64,000 nucleotides of DNA from Gemmatimonadota bacterium (GTDB lineage Bacteria > JAAXHH01): the NCBI GenBank assembly GCA_009837395.1, contig VXTP01000005.1:62001-126000 (forward strand). Direction: 5' to 3'. Positions within the stretch are counted from its first letter, which is position 1; each line of letters opens with the position of its first letter. Position numbers and translations under genes: made by a program. Below the pieces are notes generated by a model. The model did no database searches and had not been told where the DNA came from. It saw only the letters and a list, made by a program, of their open reading frames with translations. This document shows positions 42,956 to 52,969 of the stretch, piece by piece.

Positions 42956-43050
42956 TCTTGTACATTCAGCAAAAACCAAATAGTATTTACATGAACGCAA
43001 GAGCTTACGTCAGCGTATTCGGCTGGAGAGGAACGGGCAGGAGAGGAAAG

Positions 43051-43935
43051 ATGGTGCGCCTGAGTCTGTTTACCGCGGGTCTCGCGCTGGTCGCTATGGC
43101 CTGCAAGTCCGGTCCTACCATCGATGGCACGGACGTCGAGACCTTCGACGCGTCCATCGCCGAGGTCAAGGGCTCCCTGGCCGAGGACGACCAGGAAAGA
43201 CTCGACGACGTGCTGGATGCCTTCGAGTACCTCTACAGCGACAACGTGATCAGCGCGCTGAACGCGTCGGACGCCATTCAGAACCGGATCCGCAGCCGGC
43301 TGGACGGCATGGACGCGGGGGACATCTTCGCGGAGTGGAACGAGCGGGTGAACAAGGCCATCGAGGCCCTCGAGGAGAAGCAGGAGAACACGGATTCCGC
43401 CATGGAGCGTCTCAAGGACGTGCGGGTGCGGGGGGTCGAGTACTACGTGCAGCGGGGCCGGTCCGTCGTGAAACTCTCCATTCATAACCGGACGGAACAC
43501 CGGATCTCGAAGGTGTACTTCCGCGGTTCGCTGATGAGAAGGGAACCTCGGAAGTGGATCCTGGACGACGATTTCAACTACAATATCCGGCACACGGAGG
43601 GCAAGGACCTGGGGCCGGACGAACGGGCCGTCTGGAACTTCGCCCTGCTGTCGCCGGTATGGAAGAAGGCCCCGGAGGACGTGGACAACCTCTTTCTGTA
43701 CGTGATCGTCACGCGCATCGACGGCGCCCCCGAACAACCTATCTACGACGCCTACACGGATCGTTTCACGCCCAAGGACCGGAGACGGCTCCGCAGGCTG
43801 ATCTCCCTCAAGGAATCCATCGGGACGTTCGAGCCGGAGCCCGAGACCGATCCCGAGACTGATCCCGAGACCGGGTCCGAAGAGACCTCATCCCGCCAGT
43901 TCGCGCCATCCGCCCCACATCGCTCCTTCCGCTAG
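43051..43935 (+). CDS. DUF6694-like lipoprotein
   Basis: ATG 43051 is preceded by gaggaaag and gives MVRLSLFTAGLALVAMAC, a lipoprotein signal. The mature protein has the pattern TIDGTDVETFDASIAEVKGSLAEDDQERLDDVLDAFEYL, recalled from DUF6694 lipoproteins. A coiled segment and a beta-rich region (VRGVEYYVQRGRSVVKLSIHNRTEHRISKVYFRG) follow. The tail holds a tandem EPETDPETDPETG. It is 95 bases past the kinase operon. Its TAG stop shares a CTAG with the stop of the convergent channel gene. Function unknown. Confidence 0.7.
   Translation: MVRLSLFTAGLALVAMACKSGPTIDGTDVETFDASIAEVKGSLAEDDQERLDDVLDAFEYLYSDNVISALNASDAIQNRIRSRLDGMDAGDIFAEWNERVNKAIEALEEKQENTDSAMERLKDVRVRGVEYYVQRGRSVVKLSIHNRTEHRISKVYFRGSLMRREPRKWILDDDFNYNIRHTEGKDLGPDERAVWNFALLSPVWKKAPEDVDNLFLYVIVTRIDGAPEQPIYDAYTDRFTPKDRRRLRRLISLKESIGTFEPEPETDPETDPETGSEETSSRQFAPSAPHRSFR
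43932..43935. other. Shared CTAG: stop codons of two convergent genes overlap
   Basis: CTAG is self-complementary. TAG at 43933-43935 ends the plus-strand lipoprotein, and TAG on the minus strand (43934-43932) ends the channel gene. Flanking copies of tcgctccttccgc suggest that a small duplication produced this arrangement. Confidence 0.95.
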
Positions 43936-44789
43936 TTCGCTCCTTCCGCCGAATCGATATACCGGTCCACCGTATCGGCGAATATCAGGAATTGCGGGTT
44001 GCTGCGGTGAGTCTGCCGCAGGGCCAGCACCGTGCGGCCTTGCGGCCCCTCCTCGTGAACCCCTCTGCAGTATTCCTCCATTAACGTGGGTTCCAGCGGT
44101 TGCCGGGAGTCGTGGAAGCTGTCGGCGAAGAACCCGAAGATCATGCCCACGATACCGATGCCCACCATCATCATCAGGACGGTGGCCCCCTGACCCAGGG
44201 GAGTGACCGGGTACTTGTCCCCGTACCCCACCGTGGTGGAGGTCACCACGGCCCACCAGATGCTGTCGCCGTAGACATTGAATACCTCCGGCTGGGCGCG
44301 GCGTTCCACCTCGTAGATCACGGTGGAGCTGATCATCAGGTACATGATGGTAATGAGGAAAATGGGGATGACCCGGACGCGATTGGTGTACATGGACCGG
44401 GCGAACTCCGCCAGCTTGGGGCTGTAACGGAACATCTTGAGCAGCCGGAGCGTCCGCGCGCCGCGCACCAGGCCGAGTTGCTCCTGGGTGAGGCCGGGAT
44501 AGAATCCGATCCAGAAGGGCAGGATGCTGACCAGGTCGATCAACCCGAGCCCGCTGCGCAGGTATTTGCCCTTGTGCGGCGCCAGCTTGATGCGCAGCAC
44601 GTACTCCAGGGTGAAGAACCCGGCGATGACCCGTTCGATCCAGATGAACCCCGCCCAGGCGCCGGCGTCCAGGCTGCTGCGCGTCTGGGTATACTGCAAC
44701 TCGATGAAATAGAGGATCATGTTGACGGCCAGTACGTAGGGACCGAAGCGGTGTACGGCCGCAAGGAGGGAGGACAGGATTCCCGGCAT
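43932..44789 (-). CDS. Six-transmembrane voltage-gated-type potassium channel
   Basis: Six hydrophobic segments with an S4-like positively charged helix (RGARTLRLLKMFRYSP) at 109-124. The pore loop TTVGYGD at 185-191 is the K+ selectivity filter. The C-terminal tail after S6 carries no RCK domain. 285 residues; AGGAGG precedes ATG 44789. It is last in a cluster with PspA-like and DUF2491 genes, 119 bases after the PspA-like gene, with a hairpin between. It may adjust membrane potential when the envelope is damaged (inference from context). Confidence 0.93.
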   Translation of the reverse strand: MPGILSSLLAAVHRFGPYVLAVNMILYFIELQYTQTRSSLDAGAWAGFIWIERVIAGFFTLEYVLRIKLAPHKGKYLRSGLGLIDLVSILPFWIGFYPGLTQEQLGLVRGARTLRLLKMFRYSPKLAEFARSMYTNRVRVIPIFLITIMYLMISSTVIYEVERRAQPEVFNVYGDSIWWAVVTSTTVGYGDKYPVTPLGQGATVLMMMVGIGIVGMIFGFFADSFHDSRQPLEPTLMEEYCRGVHEEGPQGRTVLALRQTHRSNPQFLIFADTVDRYIDSAEGAN

Positions 44790-44846
44790 GGTTTGCCTCC
44801 TGGGAGAATGCGGTGGGCTTTCCTGATTGCGTTAGGCTTATATGAG

Positions 44847-44885
44847 AAAGGCCCACCGTCCGCTTTCCGCATCGGGTGAGCCTTT
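44847..44885 (-). terminator. Hairpin between the PspA-like and channel genes (terminator or attenuator)
   Basis: Arms 44847-44857 and 44875-44885 pair in 10 of 11 positions around a 17-base loop. Read on the minus strand the stem is followed by a short T-rich stretch (tttctcat), not a full U-run. It could reduce channel expression relative to the PspA-like gene. Confidence 0.35.
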
Positions 44886-44908
44886 GAATGCAGGTCCTTG
44901 AGGCGGTC

Positions 44909-45679
44909 TCAGGACTTCCTGGAACGCAGGGCCGCCAGCCGGTCCCGCGTCGACGATGCGGGCAGCGCGGGTTTGTCGGCCGCTTCCAGGGCCGCTGCGA
45001 TGTTGGGATCGTCGGAGATTTCGGTCTGGCCGAAGGCACCGATCTTCAGCTCTGCGGCACGGGAGGTCGTCTCCGCCTTCTCCGTTTCCTTATCCATGGC
45101 GTTGAGGGCCGTGTCGAGTCCGCCCATTGAACTGCTCAGTCCCGCGGCCTGCCGCACGCCTTCTGCGCGTTCGAGGGCCCGTTCCTTCTTCATCCGGGCC
45201 TGCTCCATGCGGCGCTGGGCTTGTTTCAGCTGGACCTGCGCCTTCTTGAGCTTCTCCGCCGCCACATCGTAGGCCTGGCGCAGCTCGGTCGCGAAGGCCT
45301 CCGCTTCCTGGTCCTCCTGGCGCTCCCTTTCGATCTCCGGGTTCAAGCGCTCCAGTTCCGCAACCAGCTTTTCCAGACTTTCCTCCAGCTTGGATCGCTG
45401 GCCCTCTTCCGCCCCTTCGAGCTGGCCTTCGATCCGTTCTGCGGCGGCCAGGTACCGGTCGTACTGCGTCAACAGCGCCTGCGTCTCTTCATGGTCCTTC
45501 TTCACGTCCATCTCGGCCTTGCCGACCCGCTTCCCGAGCTTGTCGAGTTCCTCTTCCATGAGGGAGATCTGCGCCTCGGAGGCGGTTTCCGGATCGAAGG
45601 CCACCACGGCCTGGGTGAAGGACTCCAGGGCGTTGCCGGCCTGTTTCTTGCCGACGCGGGAGAGAAACTTCCAGATCAT
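44909..45679 (-). CDS. PspA/IM30-like coiled-coil protein (YjfJ type)
   Basis: The 256-residue protein is almost wholly coiled coil (residues about 35-185), with an amphipathic N-terminus (MIWKFLSRVGKKQAGNALESF) as in PspA, which binds stressed membranes. It lies 18 bases after a DUF2491 gene, the same order as yjfJ-yjfK of enterobacteria. PspA proteins form rods that patch membranes and limit proton leak. The C-terminus (SSTRDRLAALRSRKS) is not conserved PspA sequence, so it is a divergent member. Confidence 0.8.
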   Translation of the reverse strand: MIWKFLSRVGKKQAGNALESFTQAVVAFDPETASEAQISLMEEELDKLGKRVGKAEMDVKKDHEETQALLTQYDRYLAAAERIEGQLEGAEEGQRSKLEESLEKLVAELERLNPEIERERQEDQEAEAFATELRQAYDVAAEKLKKAQVQLKQAQRRMEQARMKKERALERAEGVRQAAGLSSSMGGLDTALNAMDKETEKAETTSRAAELKIGAFGQTEISDDPNIAAALEAADKPALPASSTRDRLAALRSRKS

Positions 45680-45697
45680 TTTTTCATCCTTTCGCGT

Positions 45698-46399
45698 TTA
45701 AATAACCGTGACTTCCTCGAGCATCAATGCCACGCCCAGATATAGTTCTATAACCCCGTCGCCCGCGCTGATCAACAGGAATTCGTCCACGCGCTCGGGA
45801 TCTTCCGGGTTGTGGGGATCCCCGCTTGCTACCCGGAAGTAGGACATGGCCTGCTGGGTCTCCTCGAAGACCTGCTCGCCGTACGCGTCGCGAATGATCC
45901 GCTCGTCGACCTGTACCGGGGCCGACTGCCCGTCGCCGTCCATCCATTCCCGCTGGTAGCTTCTTTCCTCCCCGTCGCCGTGCAGCACTTCCGGGGATCC
46001 GATGATGCCGTCCGTGCTGTTCAGCCACTGTTCCCAGACTTCCTCGGAATGGGGATACAGATCCCGGTCGAGCACGTACAGGCGGCATTCCACGGGCTCC
46101 CCGTGGTCTGACACCACCTGGAGAAACGCCGAGGTATCCCGGAGATAGCACCGGTAGGCCATGGCCCCTTCGCCGAGGTCGATCTTTCCGATCGCCTCGA
46201 TGGCCAGTGGAAAGGAGGGAAAGTTGAAATGGACGAGACCGGTAAAGGTGGACGACGCGACAGCATCAATGTCGACCAACCGGTCGATGGCGACGCCCAG
46301 GGGCAGGTCCTGGTCGACCCGCTCGGGTTTCTTCCGAAAAAAACCAGCCGCCTCTTTCGCCTGCTTTTTCGCTACGGAACGAATGATGTGAAAGCTCAT
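45698..46399 (-). CDS. DUF2491 family protein (YjfK-like)
   Basis: The 233-residue protein matches DUF2491 by the order LPLGVAIDRLVDID, HFNFPSFPLAIEAIGKIDLGEGAMAYRCYL and FLQVVSDHG, then EEVWEQWLNSTDGIIG. The family is uncharacterised but travels with PspA-like YjfJ. The start MSFHIIRSVAKKQAKEAAGFFRKKP includes a basic amphipathic helix similar to that of the adjacent PspA-like protein (both contain KKQA), suggesting shared membrane targeting. It is 12 bases after the TAXI-fusion gene. Confidence 0.85.
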   Translation of the reverse strand: MSFHIIRSVAKKQAKEAAGFFRKKPERVDQDLPLGVAIDRLVDIDAVASSTFTGLVHFNFPSFPLAIEAIGKIDLGEGAMAYRCYLRDTSAFLQVVSDHGEPVECRLYVLDRDLYPHSEEVWEQWLNSTDGIIGSPEVLHGDGEERSYQREWMDGDGQSAPVQVDERIIRDAYGEQVFEETQQAMSYFRVASGDPHNPEDPERVDEFLLISAGDGVIELYLGVALMLEEVTVI

Positions 46400-46411
46400 C
46401 GGGCCTTAGCG

Positions 46412-48238
46412 CTACTCCTCGCCCACGATGGGCTTGATGTCGTCGATGGACCGCCACAGGGCGTCCTCGAAGAGGGTCATCGGCTTGCTGCCGTAGGTAT
46501 CCACCCACTGCTTGGACAGGATCAGGATGGCGTCCACCGTGAGCGTCTCCACGCTGCTGTCGAAATAGCCGAAGAGCCAGCCTTCCTGCAGCTCGGGATA
46601 GGTCTCGTGGGGGATCGTCGCCACCTCGTAGATCGTGTTGCCGAACTGGTCCACGGCCGTGCTGAAATAGTGCTCGTCCACGGCGACCATGCTGAGCTGC
46701 AGTCCGTACTGCCGATCCGCATCCTTGAGCAGTTCCGAGTTGAGGCCGGCGACGAACAGCATGACCGAGTTGGCATCTCCCGCCACCTGGCTCAACGCTT
46801 CCTCGTAGCTGGCGAACCGCGTATTGAATTCCCCGTACCTCGGATCCTGCAGGACAAAGCCCTCCCAGGCCCTGTGCGTCCCCGAACCCCGAGGGCCGAC
46901 GTACACGATATGGGTGTTCGGCTCGAGGTCGGAGACGCTCGCGATGCCGCCGTCCTCGTTGACGATCAGTTGTACATACTCGGTGTACAGGGTCGACTGC
47001 AGCCCGACCAGCTGGTCTTCCGCTTCTGGGTTCCTGCGCAGGTAGGAGTTCAGGATGTCGCTCTGCACGAGGATCGCGTCGACCTGGTTCTGGACCAGGT
47101 TGTTCAGGTTCTCCTCCGAACCCGCCGTCGTCTCGAGCATCACGTCGAAATCAGGCAGGTGCGTCTGCAGGATCTGGCCGAACCTGTGGTAATTGCCGTT
47201 CGCCACCCCCGTATTCACCGTGATGCGGGGCTGGTTCGGATCGGCGGTGGCCACGACTTCGGCCGCCAGTGCGATCGCCGGGGTGACGCCGGGCGGCAGG
47301 TATTCGGGATCACGCGGCGTGCCTTCCAGCGTGGCGACCTGCCGGTCCAGCTCGTCCAGCTTCGCGCGCAGTTCAGTATTATCCTCGGCCAGGCGCTCGG
47401 CCTCGCTGCGCCATTCCTGGTATCCCGGGTCATTGGCATGGTGATGGGCTACCGCGTAGTGACGGCGGCTGCTCATCATGTCCAGCATGGACCACATGAA
47501 CAGGGCGTCCCACATGCCGAAGCTTGGATAGGACATGAAGGCGTATCCCGGCGTCCTCCAGCCCATGCCTCCGTAATAACTGTCCCGGCCCGCGTAGTAG
47601 TTGTCGTAGGACGTGCGGTTCTGCGAGCCGCGGTTATAGAGGCCGTTGTCCCGGTAGGTGCTCGTATTGGCCGCCGAATTGGACGACTGGGCGAAACCGG
47701 CCTGCCTGGACTGGTGCGTGGCCAGCGACCGGCGCGCCGTCTCGCTCTGGACCCGCCGGCCCATGACCGAAGACCGCGCCGTAGCCCGGCCGGTGGATGG
47801 GGCGCCTGCCCGGGTCGACCGCGCCGCGGTGGCCGAGGGCTGCCCGGCCGACGTACTGCGCGCGGGCGTGGCGGACTGCCCCGTCGTGCGGGCCGGCGTC
47901 TGGCGCGTGGCGGCCGGCGTGCTTCTCCGGGCGAATGGACTGCGCCGGCCAAAGGAACTGCGGCGATTCCAGAGGGACCGCGAACTCCGGAAACCACCGA
48001 AACCGCGACGGGCGTAGGCTTCCTCAGGACCGAACAGTCCGGTGATCTCCCGGATCGCTCGTTCCGCATTTTCCGCGCTTACCGCGTTGACTGCGCCTTC
48101 TGCGATCCGCGCCGCGTCATCGGCCGAACGCAGGCGATCGGTCGCCACCGAACGCTCCGCACTCGGTCCGATCTGCAGAAATCCACCCATCAGCGCGATC
48201 AAGCCGGTCATCAAGACCAGTTTCATATGTCGAGACAT
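46412..48238 (-). CDS. TAXI-type solute-binding domain fused to an Arg/Ser-rich, coiled-coil N-terminal half
   Basis: The 608-residue protein starts with a signal-like segment (MKLVLMTGLIALMGGFLQIG). A low-complexity Arg/Ser/Thr/Ala region spans 77-185, and a Tyr/Gly-rich segment follows at 212-262 (YYGGMGWRTPGYAFMSYPSFGMWDALFMWSML). A short coiled coil lies at 272-305, and a TAXI-family solute-binding domain from about 338 (ITVNTGVANGNYHRFGQIL, ETTAGSEENLNNLVQNQVDAILVQSD). TAXI proteins normally deliver ligands to TRAP permeases, but no TRAP permease is present. It heads the DUF2491/PspA/channel cluster, so the domain may sense rather than transport a ligand. Confidence 0.8.
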   Translation of the reverse strand: MSRHMKLVLMTGLIALMGGFLQIGPSAERSVATDRLRSADDAARIAEGAVNAVSAENAERAIREITGLFGPEEAYARRGFGGFRSSRSLWNRRSSFGRRSPFARRSTPAATRQTPARTTGQSATPARSTSAGQPSATAARSTRAGAPSTGRATARSSVMGRRVQSETARRSLATHQSRQAGFAQSSNSAANTSTYRDNGLYNRGSQNRTSYDNYYAGRDSYYGGMGWRTPGYAFMSYPSFGMWDALFMWSMLDMMSSRRHYAVAHHHANDPGYQEWRSEAERLAEDNTELRAKLDELDRQVATLEGTPRDPEYLPPGVTPAIALAAEVVATADPNQPRITVNTGVANGNYHRFGQILQTHLPDFDVMLETTAGSEENLNNLVQNQVDAILVQSDILNSYLRRNPEAEDQLVGLQSTLYTEYVQLIVNEDGGIASVSDLEPNTHIVYVGPRGSGTHRAWEGFVLQDPRYGEFNTRFASYEEALSQVAGDANSVMLFVAGLNSELLKDADRQYGLQLSMVAVDEHYFSTAVDQFGNTIYEVATIPHETYPELQEGWLFGYFDSSVETLTVDAILILSKQWVDTYGSKPMTLFEDALWRSIDDIKPIVGEE

Positions 48239-48489
48239 GAGGTACTTCCCCTGTGTAATCGGAATGTGTGTTCGGATTCTGGCTTTCTAAAGATAAAGAC
48301 TTCGAACCCCGCTGGCAAGTTGCAAACCGGTACGTAACCGGGCGATCCGGGCGATCCAGGCAGTCCGATGGTCCGGTCGATTCACGTACTTGAACTGCAG
48401 AGTTGCGTTCGGTAACCGGCAGGGAAGCCGCGCGAACGACGGATGAAGATGCCATTGACCTCGGAACACGACGGCGGTAACATACCGAA

Positions 48490-49818: not shown

Positions 49819-50265
49819 TCATCGCCTGGATCTGCCCTGCCTGTCCGGCATCAGGCTTGACGCTTCCTCCACCAGTTTCTCGAACGTCTTGATCTCGTCG
49901 GTGGAGAGCATGCCCTTCAGGTTCTCTTTAAACTGTTTTTCATTGGCTTCCAGTTGCTCGCGCAGCCAGTTCCAGTCCTCGGTCTTCGTGGCCTGTTCCA
50001 CCAGCGCGGCCTTCTGAGACGAGGCATCCTTCACGACCGCGCGCAATTGCAGCACCTGCTCGTCGGTGGTTTCCATCCGGATGCTCAACACGTGCCAGAT
50101 CCGGTCGACGGGGAAGGTGCTTACCGCCCGCATGCGTTCCATCATGGCACTGTTCAGACCCCGGCCGCCCCCGCGACCAAATCCGCCTCGCTGTGCGGCC
50201 ACGTCGTTGGCGATAAAGGCGGTCAGGATCAGGCCAAGTATGGCCAGGTGAAGACGGTATCTCAT
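49819..50265 (-). CDS. Spy/CpxP-like periplasmic protein, 148 aa
   Basis: A signal peptide (LHLAILGLILTAFIANDVAAQ) precedes a Gly/Arg-rich linker and a helical domain (DRIWHVLSIRMETTDEQVLQLRAVVKDASSQ ... LEANEKQFKENLKGMLSTDEIKTFEKLV). The LSTDEIKTFE element resembles the LTxEQ motifs of Spy/CpxP chaperones. It is the last gene of the sigma-factor operon on the minus strand, 140 bases after the next Spy-like gene. Probably an ATP-independent periplasmic chaperone or metal-stress sensor; weak similarity only. Confidence 0.6.
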   Translation of the reverse strand: MRYRLHLAILGLILTAFIANDVAAQRGGFGRGGGRGLNSAMMERMRAVSTFPVDRIWHVLSIRMETTDEQVLQLRAVVKDASSQKAALVEQATKTEDWNWLREQLEANEKQFKENLKGMLSTDEIKTFEKLVEEASSLMPDRQGRSRR

Positions 50266-50405
50266 GTTTCGACTCCTTTTAAAAGACCAATATGGCGAAT
50301 GAATGCCGCGGTCGGACCTGGATCCTTCCGCGGCATGTGCTCGGCTACGATCACTGCGTCATAACCTTTTACGCTCCTCAGATTGCCTCATCTTGCAACA
50401 CCTGC

Positions 50406-51026
50406 TCAACGCCGGTTGCGCGATTCGCGGCCGTCGCGCCGCCCGCGCACCCCGGAGTCCCGGCGACCGTCGCGCCGGTCGCGGAATGACTCACGCAGGT
50501 TCTCCTGCTGCTCCGGGGTCAGGACATTTTTGAACTCGGCGCGAAAGAGCGCGCTTCGCTCGAACACGGCACCCCGGGCTGCCGATGCAGCCGCGGCCAG
50601 TTCCTTCACCCTGTCGATGTCCGGGCTGATCTCATTCATCAGTTCGCGAAGATCGACCCGCGCGAGTCTAGAGTCGGCGCGAAGCTGGATCATTTCCCGC
50701 GTGTAGGCGGAACGCAGCGTCTCGATCTTCTCCTCCTGCTCGTCCGTGAGTTCGAGACCGGACATTGCTCTCCGGGACAGACGCGTCCGCACATCGTCCG
50801 CATCGTCATCGGAGAGATCAACGGCCAGGATGTCATCAAACTCGTCGGATGATCCGGCCGCTGCGAGTTCAGCTACTCCGGCGAGCACGTCGGCATCCTC
50901 ATGACCGGTTTCCGCCGCATGCTCTGCAGCTTCCTCGTGTCCGATCCGGCCCATCGCATCTAGAGCCCAGGCCAGCACGACAACACTCAGAGCGCCTGCG
51001 AATGTGATTGAAATGATCTTTTTCAT
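50406..51026 (-). CDS. Spy/CpxP-like periplasmic protein, 206 aa
   Basis: MKKIISITFAGALSVVVLAWALDAMG is a signal or anchor helix. The mature part has LTDEQEEKIETLRSAYTREMIQLRADSRLARVDLRELM and VLTPEQQENLRESFRDRRDG, the paired L-T-x-E-Q motifs typical of Spy/CpxP/zinc-resistance periplasmic helical proteins. An acidic 35-residue linker precedes them, and an Arg-rich tail ends the protein. It follows the membrane-anchored 174-aa gene in the sigma-factor operon. Likely a periplasmic stress chaperone. Confidence 0.75.
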   Translation of the reverse strand: MKKIISITFAGALSVVVLAWALDAMGRIGHEEAAEHAAETGHEDADVLAGVAELAAAGSSDEFDDILAVDLSDDDADDVRTRLSRRAMSGLELTDEQEEKIETLRSAYTREMIQLRADSRLARVDLRELMNEISPDIDRVKELAAAASAARGAVFERSALFRAEFKNVLTPEQQENLRESFRDRRDGRRDSGVRGRRDGRESRNRR

Positions 51027-51193
51027 TTTGTAACTCCCTTCATGGTAAGACTGGCGGATGTATGGACCGCGATCTCCGGAAGATCGTCTTCGTGCTGTTC
51101 TACAGGATTAGACATTGGCCGGATGCGGTTTATTCCGACTTTCTTTACATCCGTACATTGCCCGGGCCACGCCGGACGTGCCGGAACGAGGCG

Positions 51194-51718
51194 TCAATGG
51201 TCGCCCCCGTTCCCGCGCTCCTCCGCACGGTCGTCGCTCCCGCGCCCTTCCGTACGATTACTGTCAGTGCGATCCCCTCGGCCCCGCTCGCCGGCCCGGT
51301 TGCGTCCGGGCGGCCCAGGGCGACCCCGGCGTGGCTCGCGATCGCCATCCCGACGGAACTCGAGGACGCGTTCGCGTTCCTCGCGAATCCGCTTGATCCG
51401 CTCGAGTTGCTCTTCGGTAAGGATGGGTTCCAGGTCCCTGTGCAATGAATCGACCAGGACCTGTATCTCCTGCCGGTGGCGCATGTAGTGCTCCCGGAAT
51501 CCGGGTTCGTGCTCACCCACCACTTCCCGGATCCTTTGCATCTGCTCCGTGTCCGGCCGCACCATCCTGACCCACCGTTCCACGAAGCGTTCCCTGGTTA
51601 CCTGGGGCGGAGGCTGCAGGCGGTCCCGGGCAAAGGCGCCCAGGATGAGTGCGCCGCAGACCATGCCGATGATCAACGTGGCCAGCAGAATGGCCGCGGT
51701 CTTCAGGTGGATGTTCAT
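51194..51718 (-). CDS. Membrane-anchored periplasmic protein, Spy/heavy-metal-sensor-like
   Basis: One N-terminal membrane helix (AAILLATLIIGMVCGALILGAF) is followed by a helical periplasmic domain with EQMQRIREVVGEHEPGFREHYMRHRQEIQVLVDSLHRDLEPILTEEQLERIKRIREER. The tail (after about 128) is Arg/Gly/Asp-rich and low complexity. Its ATG overlaps the anti-sigma stop (ATGA), so the two are translationally coupled. Such small anchored helical proteins often follow ECF-sigma/anti-sigma pairs and report envelope status; the specific signal is unknown. Confidence 0.75.
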   Translation of the reverse strand: MNIHLKTAAILLATLIIGMVCGALILGAFARDRLQPPPQVTRERFVERWVRMVRPDTEQMQRIREVVGEHEPGFREHYMRHRQEIQVLVDSLHRDLEPILTEEQLERIKRIREERERVLEFRRDGDREPRRGRPGPPGRNRAGERGRGDRTDSNRTEGRGSDDRAEERGNGGDH

Positions 51719-52173
51719 AATTCGCCCTCCGATTCCAGCGCGATCCGCGCGTCGTACAGGTCTTCAGGATACAATTCCTCGGTCAGTCCGAACGACGTGT
51801 TGATAGAGACGCTTTCGGACGTGGCCAGGTTGTAGGTTAACAGCAGGACGGCAGCGACCGAAGCGGCCACTGCTACTTTGCGGAACATGAGGGGCAACGC
51901 GTCCTCGAAGTCGGTTGTTGTTTCGCCTTCAGGAATCGACACCGGCCTGGCCGCGGACTCCGCCGCCAGGCGTTCCATGACGCGTTGGGAGAAATCCGCC
52001 CTGAACGAGGGCGATTCCTGGTTTTCGACCTGGCTTCGCAGCCGGACCAGTCGTTCGTATTCGTCCCGCAGGCCGGGATCGCGCCGCAGCGCCGCGTCCA
52101 GGCGGCTTTGTTCTTCGGGCGTCAGGGACGCATCCAGCGACCGGTACAGCAGATCCAGTTCAGACCGTTTCAT
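51715..52173 (-). CDS. Anti-sigma factor, membrane-bound
   Basis: ATG 52173 (MKRSELDLLYRSLDASLTPEE) has GGAG seven bases upstream and is preferred over TTG 52179. The N-terminal helical domain (RLDAALRRDPGLRDEYERLVRLRSQVE) is anti-sigma-like but lacks the zinc-binding H-x3-C-x2-C motif. A membrane helix lies at about 103-121 (KVAVAASVAAVLLLTYNLA), with a periplasmic tail after it. It overlaps the sigma gene by 14 bases and the next gene by 4, indicating a tight operon. It would sequester the sigma factor until a periplasmic signal frees it. Confidence 0.85.
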   Translation of the reverse strand: MKRSELDLLYRSLDASLTPEEQSRLDAALRRDPGLRDEYERLVRLRSQVENQESPSFRADFSQRVMERLAAESAARPVSIPEGETTTDFEDALPLMFRKVAVAASVAAVLLLTYNLATSESVSINTSFGLTEELYPEDLYDARIALESEGEL

Positions 52174-52750
52174 GGACAAGCTCCCTGTTAGAGGAAATAA
52201 GCATGCGTTTCAGTTTCTCCTGGGACCTCCTCAGGCGGGACAGTACCGTTCCGACGGGCACGCCCAGGATCTCGGCGGTATCTTTCGTGGAGTAGCCCTC
52301 TATCAGCCGGAGAACGATCACGGAACGGAATTCGGGCTTCAATCGGTTCAGCGCCGCCTGAATCCGGTCGGCCGTGTCGTCGTATTCGGCACTGGCCGCC
52401 GGGTCGGCATATTCCAGTTCCGGTGCGTCGTCTTCCCTGCCCGGAGGGGTAAGGGGGACGAAGATCGAACGGCGCCGGCGTTTTTTCAGTTCGGTGAGCG
52501 ACAGGTTGATGGCGATCCTGGTCAGGTAGGTGCCGACCGACGCCTGACCCCGAAATCCATGCAAGCCTCGATAGAACCGGATGAAAGTCTCCTGCCCCGC
52601 GTCCTCGGCTTCAGGGGTGTTCCCCAGCATGCGGATCACGACGGACGCCACGCGGCCTTCGTATCGTTCCACCAGCGTGCGGAAGGCGTCCTCGCTGCCA
52701 TCGCGGGCGGCGTCGACCAGTGCTTCGTCCGTCAAGGCGTCTTCCCTCAT
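52160..52750 (-). CDS. ECF (RpoE-like) RNA polymerase sigma factor
   Basis: ATG 52750 (MREDALTDEALVDAARDG) follows a GAGGGA ribosome site; 52789 would add 13 residues. Sigma region 2 is clear (FRTLVERYEGRVASVVIRMLGNTPEAEDAGQETFIRFYRGL), as is region 4 with its HTH (LNRLKPEFRSVIVLRLIEGYSTKDTAEILGVPVGTVLSRLRRSQEKL). It transcribes stress genes when released from the anti-sigma factor encoded next. The downstream Spy-like genes are its likely targets or outputs. 196 residues. Confidence 0.95.
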   Translation of the reverse strand: MREDALTDEALVDAARDGSEDAFRTLVERYEGRVASVVIRMLGNTPEAEDAGQETFIRFYRGLHGFRGQASVGTYLTRIAINLSLTELKKRRRRSIFVPLTPPGREDDAPELEYADPAASAEYDDTADRIQAALNRLKPEFRSVIVLRLIEGYSTKDTAEILGVPVGTVLSRLRRSQEKLKRMLISSNRELVHETV

Positions 52751-52969
52751 CCCGCTTCCCTCGAATGGCCGGAACAATATGGTCAGCATCGGGCGTACTG
52801 TCGGCCGGCGCGGCCCGTTAACGCCTCACGAAAGTGCCGGAGATCGATCCGAACGGTTGCCGCTGCCTATCGATTAGACTCCGCCGTCGCTGATTCTATT
52901 CCCTTAAAATCAAAATCTGGTAACTTCTTTCACAGGGAACTGCGCAATGAGGCTGCAAAACGAATCGGT

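Follow-up and report, generated by a model that had tools for sequence, protein, structure and literature searches.

In a 64,000-nucleotide stretch of DNA deposited as Gemmatimonadota bacterium (assembly GCA_009837395.1, contig VXTP01000005.1, positions 62,001 to 126,000; hereafter the window), we analysed four adjacent genes that encode a fusion protein with a TAXI substrate-binding domain, a DUF2491 protein, a coiled-coil protein (the coil protein) and a K+ channel. This cluster appears to be related to known envelope-protection gene clusters but to carry a receptor, a form not yet described. Taken as a whole, it is best explained as a membrane-protection cluster of the YjfJ/YjfK type (PspA-DUF2491) to which a receptor has been added, an explanation that we put forward tentatively and with slightly less than even confidence. 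The genes are:

46412-48238, minus strand: TAXI fusion protein, 608 amino acids
45698-46399, minus strand: DUF2491 (YjfK-like) protein, 233 amino acids
44909-45679, minus strand: coil protein, 256 amino acids
43932-44789, minus strand: six-helix K+ channel, 285 amino acids

Conservation of the four-gene cluster

A first-pass annotation, made from the letters of the window, had placed four genes here; its coordinates are exact, and all four genes lie on the minus strand. It had also taken them to be read together, which is secure for the first three, where the gaps are 12 nt (TAXI fusion to DUF2491) and 18 nt (DUF2491 to coil), whereas the channel gene follows a gap of 119 nt in which a conserved terminator-like hairpin lies. 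The recurrence of the gene order, which that annotation proposed to look for across bacteria, was found within the phylum: 14 of the 16 Latescibacterota genomes examined encode all four proteins, the channel at 63% identity or more, and every carrier (14/14) has the order TAXI fusion, DUF2491, coil, K+ channel. The remaining two (G013 and G015) are without orthologues of all four genes. The same order was seen in the 13 other genomes compared with the window, with the TAXI gene cut by a contig end in two of them and the channel gene in one.

The window's cluster is flanked by genes for a PfkB kinase, a HAD-like protein, a lipoprotein-like protein and an enolase-superfamily member. In a genome from another family (G014), the cluster proteins are 55-70% identical and their order is unchanged, but the flanks differ, with no HAD, PfkB or enolase-like neighbour found. 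The conservation of order is far beyond chance. Because the order is held in G014 despite the changed flanks, and because the cluster is carried by 14 of 16 genomes, selection appears to keep the four genes together.

The window comes from a metagenome-assembled genome of Latescibacterota, as its relatives are mostly named so, and a few Gemmatimonadetes. Public metagenome-assembled genomes labelled Gemmatimonadetes (L034, L039 and L041) fall in the window's Latescibacterota genus, an apparent mislabelling. A reading of the cluster as a defence system was rejected, as PADLOC and PHROGs gave coiled-coil noise, one TAXI-like phrog and channel phrogs only; no DUF2491 was found on viral contigs.

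The TAXI fusion protein and its ligand pocket

The fusion protein is conserved in 14 genomes. We use the name WD/H module for its middle part of about 100 residues.

46412-48238, minus strand: signal peptide, Arg/Ser-rich linker, WD/H module, TAXI substrate-binding domain
47273-47575, minus strand: WD/H module, amino acids ~222-322, YGG.GW..P.Y.Y...P.[FY]G.[WF]D.[LM]F...[LM]L....HHH..DPG[YM].EW....
46448-47254, minus strand: TAXI domain, amino acids ~329-597, pocket residues Y350, S374, Q392 and E420

The suggestion of a binding-protein fusion that may be exported was borne out, since the TAXI match is real and a signal peptide is predicted; after the signal peptide, no further transmembrane segment and no lipobox were seen. 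The protein matches Pfam NMT1_3 above its cut-off (E=2.5e-12, 47 bits against 27) and NCBIfam TRAP_TAXI below the curated one (E=5e-19, 68 bits against 84), and the profile of the domain finds solved TAXI structures (1us4, E=1.3e-11). By profile and by homology to solved structures, it is a TAXI substrate-binding protein. The domain also matches a phage family of unknown function, phrog_6856, at E=4e-32, which beats the bacterial TAXI models.

Glutamate binding by VcGluP involves Y45, S75, Q93 and E125 among others, of which Y45 and Q93 are decisive (PMC11574862). Their equivalents in the window are Y350, S374, Q392 and E420, with the numbering checked via TtGluBP Gln78, which is equated with VcGluP Gln93 (PMC11574862). 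All four residues are kept in the eight TAXI proteins that we compared from such clusters (system TAXIs; 8/8, three lineages), where they are invariant over path lengths of more than two changes per column, whereas the ordinary TAXI proteins that this search returned are variable here, above all at the Q and E positions. Whether the domain keeps its ligand pocket, a point raised by the first-pass annotation, can thus be answered positively at these residues. System and ordinary TAXIs were split at 100/100 in a maximum-likelihood tree of 18 sequences, a small sampling with long branches flagged. No TRAP or GltS gene is among the identified neighbours of the cluster in the window, and the TAXI gene does not stand beside a fused TRAP membrane gene, the mark of a TAXI-type TRAP transporter.

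DUF2491 and membrane topology

The window's DUF2491 belongs to PF10679 (E=1.1e-20, 74 bits, cut-off 25). To our knowledge, this family (YjfK in E. coli) has no known function. Helical moment and alignment across lineages reveal a basic amphipathic helix at its N-terminus. The KKQA-type helix said to be common to DUF2491 and the coil protein is real: KKQA occupies residues 11-14 of both (shuffle p=0.004, uncorrected). A likeness of this helix was also seen between the DUF2491 of G337, one of the Pseudomonadota, and the Latescibacterota coil, and it does not reach the gammaproteobacterial lineage.

On Azospirillum plasmids and in G240, a signal peptide, the WD/H module, a single transmembrane helix and DUF2491 form one chain with no TAXI domain, and this gene is followed by DUF350 and then the coil. 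Bosea likewise has module, transmembrane helix and DUF2491, in an annotated protein that begins inside the module. Gene fusions are a classical sign of interaction between proteins that are separate elsewhere. Since module, helix and DUF2491 share one chain, the module would be outside and DUF2491 inside, and the topology of a receptor outside, as first proposed, with DUF2491 inside is supported by these predicted architectures.

The coil protein

The first-pass label of a PspA/IM30-like protein did not survive, as none of seven members matches PspA_IM30 (PF04012) at E<0.5, while E. coli YjfJ, a control against the same library, gives E=5e-58. The predicted model of the coil protein nevertheless has the PspA/Vipp1 layout, with a helix at 2-27, a hairpin at 35-89/92-178 and three short C-terminal helices. 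In a fold search of the PDB with this model (Foldseek), Vipp1 entries made up seven of the top ten matches (E 0.04-0.13); the matches are not significant, the best being E=0.04. A profile of 13 coil proteins scored 32.9 against a profile of six YjfJ proteins, compared with 14.3 +/- 2.2 (maximum 19.6) for controls that were heptad-block shuffles and not a real unrelated coiled-coil family. The corresponding hhalign probability was 29%, above all 30 shuffles; it was 0.9% when the coil profile was compared with E. coli YjfJ only, and it rose with deeper profiles.

The resemblance to Vipp1/PspA thus consists of layout and weak statistics only, and the coil family has motifs of its own, DPE and DDPNIAAAL...DRLAAL. 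No PspA_IM30 match above the Pfam cut-off was found in the 16 Latescibacterota genomes (G000-G015), with one sub-threshold match (L077). The coil family is unnamed, and we regard it as a candidate remote relative of PspA and a positional substitute for PspA/YjfJ, not as a PspA_IM30 member.

The K+ channel and transcription signals

The call of a six-helix K+ channel was confirmed by a match to Ion_trans (PF00520, E=6e-29), an S4 motif that starts at residue 109 (RxxRxxRxxKxxR) and a K+ filter TVGYGD at 186; its best solved relative is Kv2.1 (E=8e-21). By its predicted S4 and filter, the protein is a voltage-gated-type K+ channel. Its C-terminal tail (43932-44100) carries LM..YC..V..EG..G.T...LRQ.H..N.QF..FADTV..YI, a pattern whose conservation reaches G014; this tail could be a docking site. 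An exported lipoprotein-like gene on the plus strand (42958-43935) is convergent to the channel gene; in G001 and G014 it keeps its side but lies 2-4 kb off.

44847-44885, minus strand: terminator-like hairpin between the coil and channel genes, present in every genome examined
48290-48323, minus strand: promoter-like element GCAACTTGCC ... GTCT ... TATCTT, upstream of the TAXI gene

The gap before the channel is about 100 nt or more in every genome examined, and the hairpin of G014 is of unrelated sequence, with a U-run. As a strong hairpin is present in every genome examined, the channel is likely attenuated or separately transcribed. The promoter-like element (GCAACTTGCC...GTCT.TATCTT) lies 85 nt before the TAXI start and is conserved in the window and ten checked same-genus sequences, and partly in G001. 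On the coding strand, no consensus promoter was found other than the one before the TAXI gene; a separate promoter for every gene, which had been named as evidence against a common unit, was thus not seen. Together with the recurrence of the gene order, this finding is in line with the four genes as one conserved unit.

Because a cluster of ECF (extracytoplasmic function) sigma factor, RseA-like and LTXXQ genes lies nearby, a sigma-E-like reading of the promoter (GCAACTT-N16-GTCT) was tried. It was rejected, as four matches genome-wide against 13 for the reversed control indicate no regulon, and a promoter motif common to these genes and the four-gene cluster could not be shown. The stress genes (49819-52789, minus strand) lie 1.6 kb upstream of the cluster and comprise the core of an envelope-stress regulon with small exported proteins, one of which is LTXXQ (CpxP/Spy family). 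The ECF sigma factor is at 52160-52789 and an RseA_N-like anti-sigma factor, below cut-off, at 51715-52179, both on the minus strand.

Occurrence outside the phylum

Scanning genomes with the TAXI alignment, we found TAXI fusion, DUF2491, coil, a small open reading frame (ORF) with one transmembrane segment and then a channel in Candidatus Azophilus lithoversatilis (Gammaproteobacteria). This set recurs in two further genomes from that order, making three Azotimanducaceae-type gammaproteobacteria in all. The Azophilus channel is a GluR0-like receptor, in which SBP_bac_3 surrounds a K+ pore; it is not orthologous to the Kv-like channel of the window, yet it holds the same position after the triad of TAXI protein, DUF2491 and coil.

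DUF2491 is present in 28 of 399 sampled Pseudomonadota, and within 1.5 kb of it lie an ORF with a K+ filter (19/28), YjfJ (17/28) or a member of the coil family (4/28). These counts are lower bounds; the DUF2491 of Azophilus, with E=4.5e-13 as protein, was missed at first. YjfJ and the coil never occur at the same locus. Among the coil loci of Pseudomonadota, G337 and G362 have a TAXI protein first and then DUF2491 and the coil; the WD/H profile search missed both because the N-terminal part of their TAXI proteins is of another kind, rich in Ser. Downstream of the G362 triad, a giant coiled-coil protein of 1747 amino acids is encoded (L115, 8513-13756). At the G483 locus, DUF2491 and the coil come after a Gly-rich exported protein that has one transmembrane segment. 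Rhizobium and Pseudomonas plasmids carry most of the set of PspA, DUF2491, K+ channel, DUF350, DUF1190 and polyamine genes. The K+ channel, proposed at first as a partner, is therefore a recurrent neighbour, as Kv-like, GluR0-like or filter ORF, but none was found near the triads of G337 and G362.

Proposed mechanism and alternative explanations

In the receptor-equipped cluster that we propose, the TAXI fusion would be exported and would sense a ligand instead of delivering one to a transporter. On the outer side of the inner membrane, its TAXI domain may bind a small amino or carboxylic acid, probably one like glutamate, and its WD/H module would contact the membrane-associated DUF2491. The latter would act inside, at the membrane via its basic amphipathic helix, or via the transmembrane helix in alphaproteobacteria, and would join the coil protein, which may do the job of PspA/YjfJ in coating or stabilising the inner face. 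The channel would be made separately or by read-through past the hairpin, and the complex of DUF2491, coil and receptor could set it, tying K+ flux and membrane potential to the condition of the receptor or the envelope. The most likely reading thus has a sensor outside, a DUF2491-coil scaffold at the inner face and the K+ channel as effector. Sensor and scaffold are supported by the anatomy; the channel may be the effector, with a channel that is just a neighbour as a serious rival. In a distinctly improbable version, the cluster is a split ionotropic receptor, in which a periplasmic glutamate-type receptor controls the separate K+ channel via the membrane-bound DUF2491-coil complex. If true, membrane potential would be ligand-controlled and the parts of one GluR0 chain would be divided over four proteins.

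Several observations weigh against our proposal: the terminator-like hairpin ahead of the channel gene, the lack of any K+ filter ORF in the 12-14 kb around the G337 and G362 loci, the failure of the coil to match PspA_IM30 and the non-significant Foldseek matches. In addition, the structure prediction for the full-length TAXI fusion was too poor for use (predicted local distance difference test score 46), and envelope stress as the trigger would come by analogy with PspA alone. The hairpin and the gap before the channel are what would be expected if the functional unit were the triad only (an exported anchor or receptor, DUF2491 and coil), next to a separately transcribed channel for general K+ homeostasis. 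The absence of a K+ filter ORF near the triad in G337 and G362 or near the G483 locus agrees with this, as does the absence of an annotated channel at the Azospirillum and Bosea loci. However, two lineages keep a K+ channel downstream on the same strand though the channels are non-orthologous, a K+ filter ORF accompanies DUF2491 at 19 of 28 loci, and the very two genomes that lack the triad have no channel orthologue either. We thus consider a unit without the channel somewhat unlikely.

TAXI proteins normally serve TRAP transporters. Together with the kept pocket residues and the exchangeable partners illustrated by TAXI-GltS (PMC12344293), this role would fit an ordinary transport binding protein of TRAP or GltS type whose membrane partner is encoded elsewhere and whose link to the other genes is positional only. 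The lack of TRAP and GltS genes among the identified neighbours, the single dedicated TAXI clade that always stands beside DUF2491 and coil in three lineages, and the fusion of a module of the same protein to DUF2491 elsewhere make this rather improbable. Alternatively, the long Arg/Ser-rich linker and the alphaproteobacterial versions without TAXI could point to a structural cell-surface protein with the TAXI fold as a ligand-free scaffold, but the invariance of all four pocket residues over more than two changes per column renders this very improbable. A receptor-equipped protection cluster remains our preferred explanation.

Comparison with known systems

The first-pass annotation had stated that PspA with DUF2491 is a known neighbourhood and had noted no description of a combination with a TAXI fusion, which agrees with the literature searched. 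Ravi et al. 2024 already describe PspA with DUF2491, K+ channel, DUF350, DUF1190 and polyamine genes (PMC11237479); a full-text search for DUF2491 gave this paper only, without mention of TAXI. Our analysis adds the TAXI clade, the coil family, the fusion of module and DUF2491, and two swapped channel types, of which the first three are not in the literature searched. The fusions suggest a testable topology and partner for DUF2491. In genomes in which we found no recognised PspA, the coil family would fill the PspA place in a second way that has no name so far, and the TAXI clade offers access to an envelope system by way of its ligand. It becomes possible to test in tractable hosts such as Azospirillum or E. 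coli K-12 what these clusters sense and for what reason K+ channels recur beside them.

The third group of Ravi et al. 2024, the YjfIJKLMC-type PspA operons, comprises a CesT/Tir-PspA dyad, K+ channel, DUF350, DUF1190, DUF2491 and an ATP-grasp ligase (PMC11237479). Like these operons, the unit in the window has DUF2491 beside a coil protein in the PspA position and a K+ channel; in Rhizobium, the ion channel and YjfK genes overlap. Unlike them, it adds a TAXI receptor, its coil family differs, and its channel is Kv-like or GluR0-like instead of the two-helix ligand-sensing type. Of the members of that class, only DUF2491 was identified in the window's unit, and YjfI/DUF2170, a recognised PspA, DUF350, DUF1190 and the polyamine ligase were not.

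TAXI-GltS of Bordetella pertussis is a precedent for the recruitment of a TAXI protein away from TRAP (PMC12344293). Both are elongated TAXI proteins without a TRAP membrane partner, while the partner of TAXI-GltS is a glutamate symporter in place of DUF2491, coil and K+ channel, and the N-terminal domains differ. In its predicted layout of an a0 helix, a long hairpin and short C-terminal helices, the coil protein resembles PspA/Vipp1 of the ESCRT-III superfamily, and Vipp1 heads its fold search, but it has no significant sequence match to them and its motifs are its own. Finally, as in GluR0-type ionotropic receptors, a binding-protein fold would be coupled to a K+-selective pore, and the gammaproteobacterial copies carry such a channel; unlike in GluR0, the receptor and the pore of the window are separate proteins, and the pore is of the six-helix voltage-gated type.

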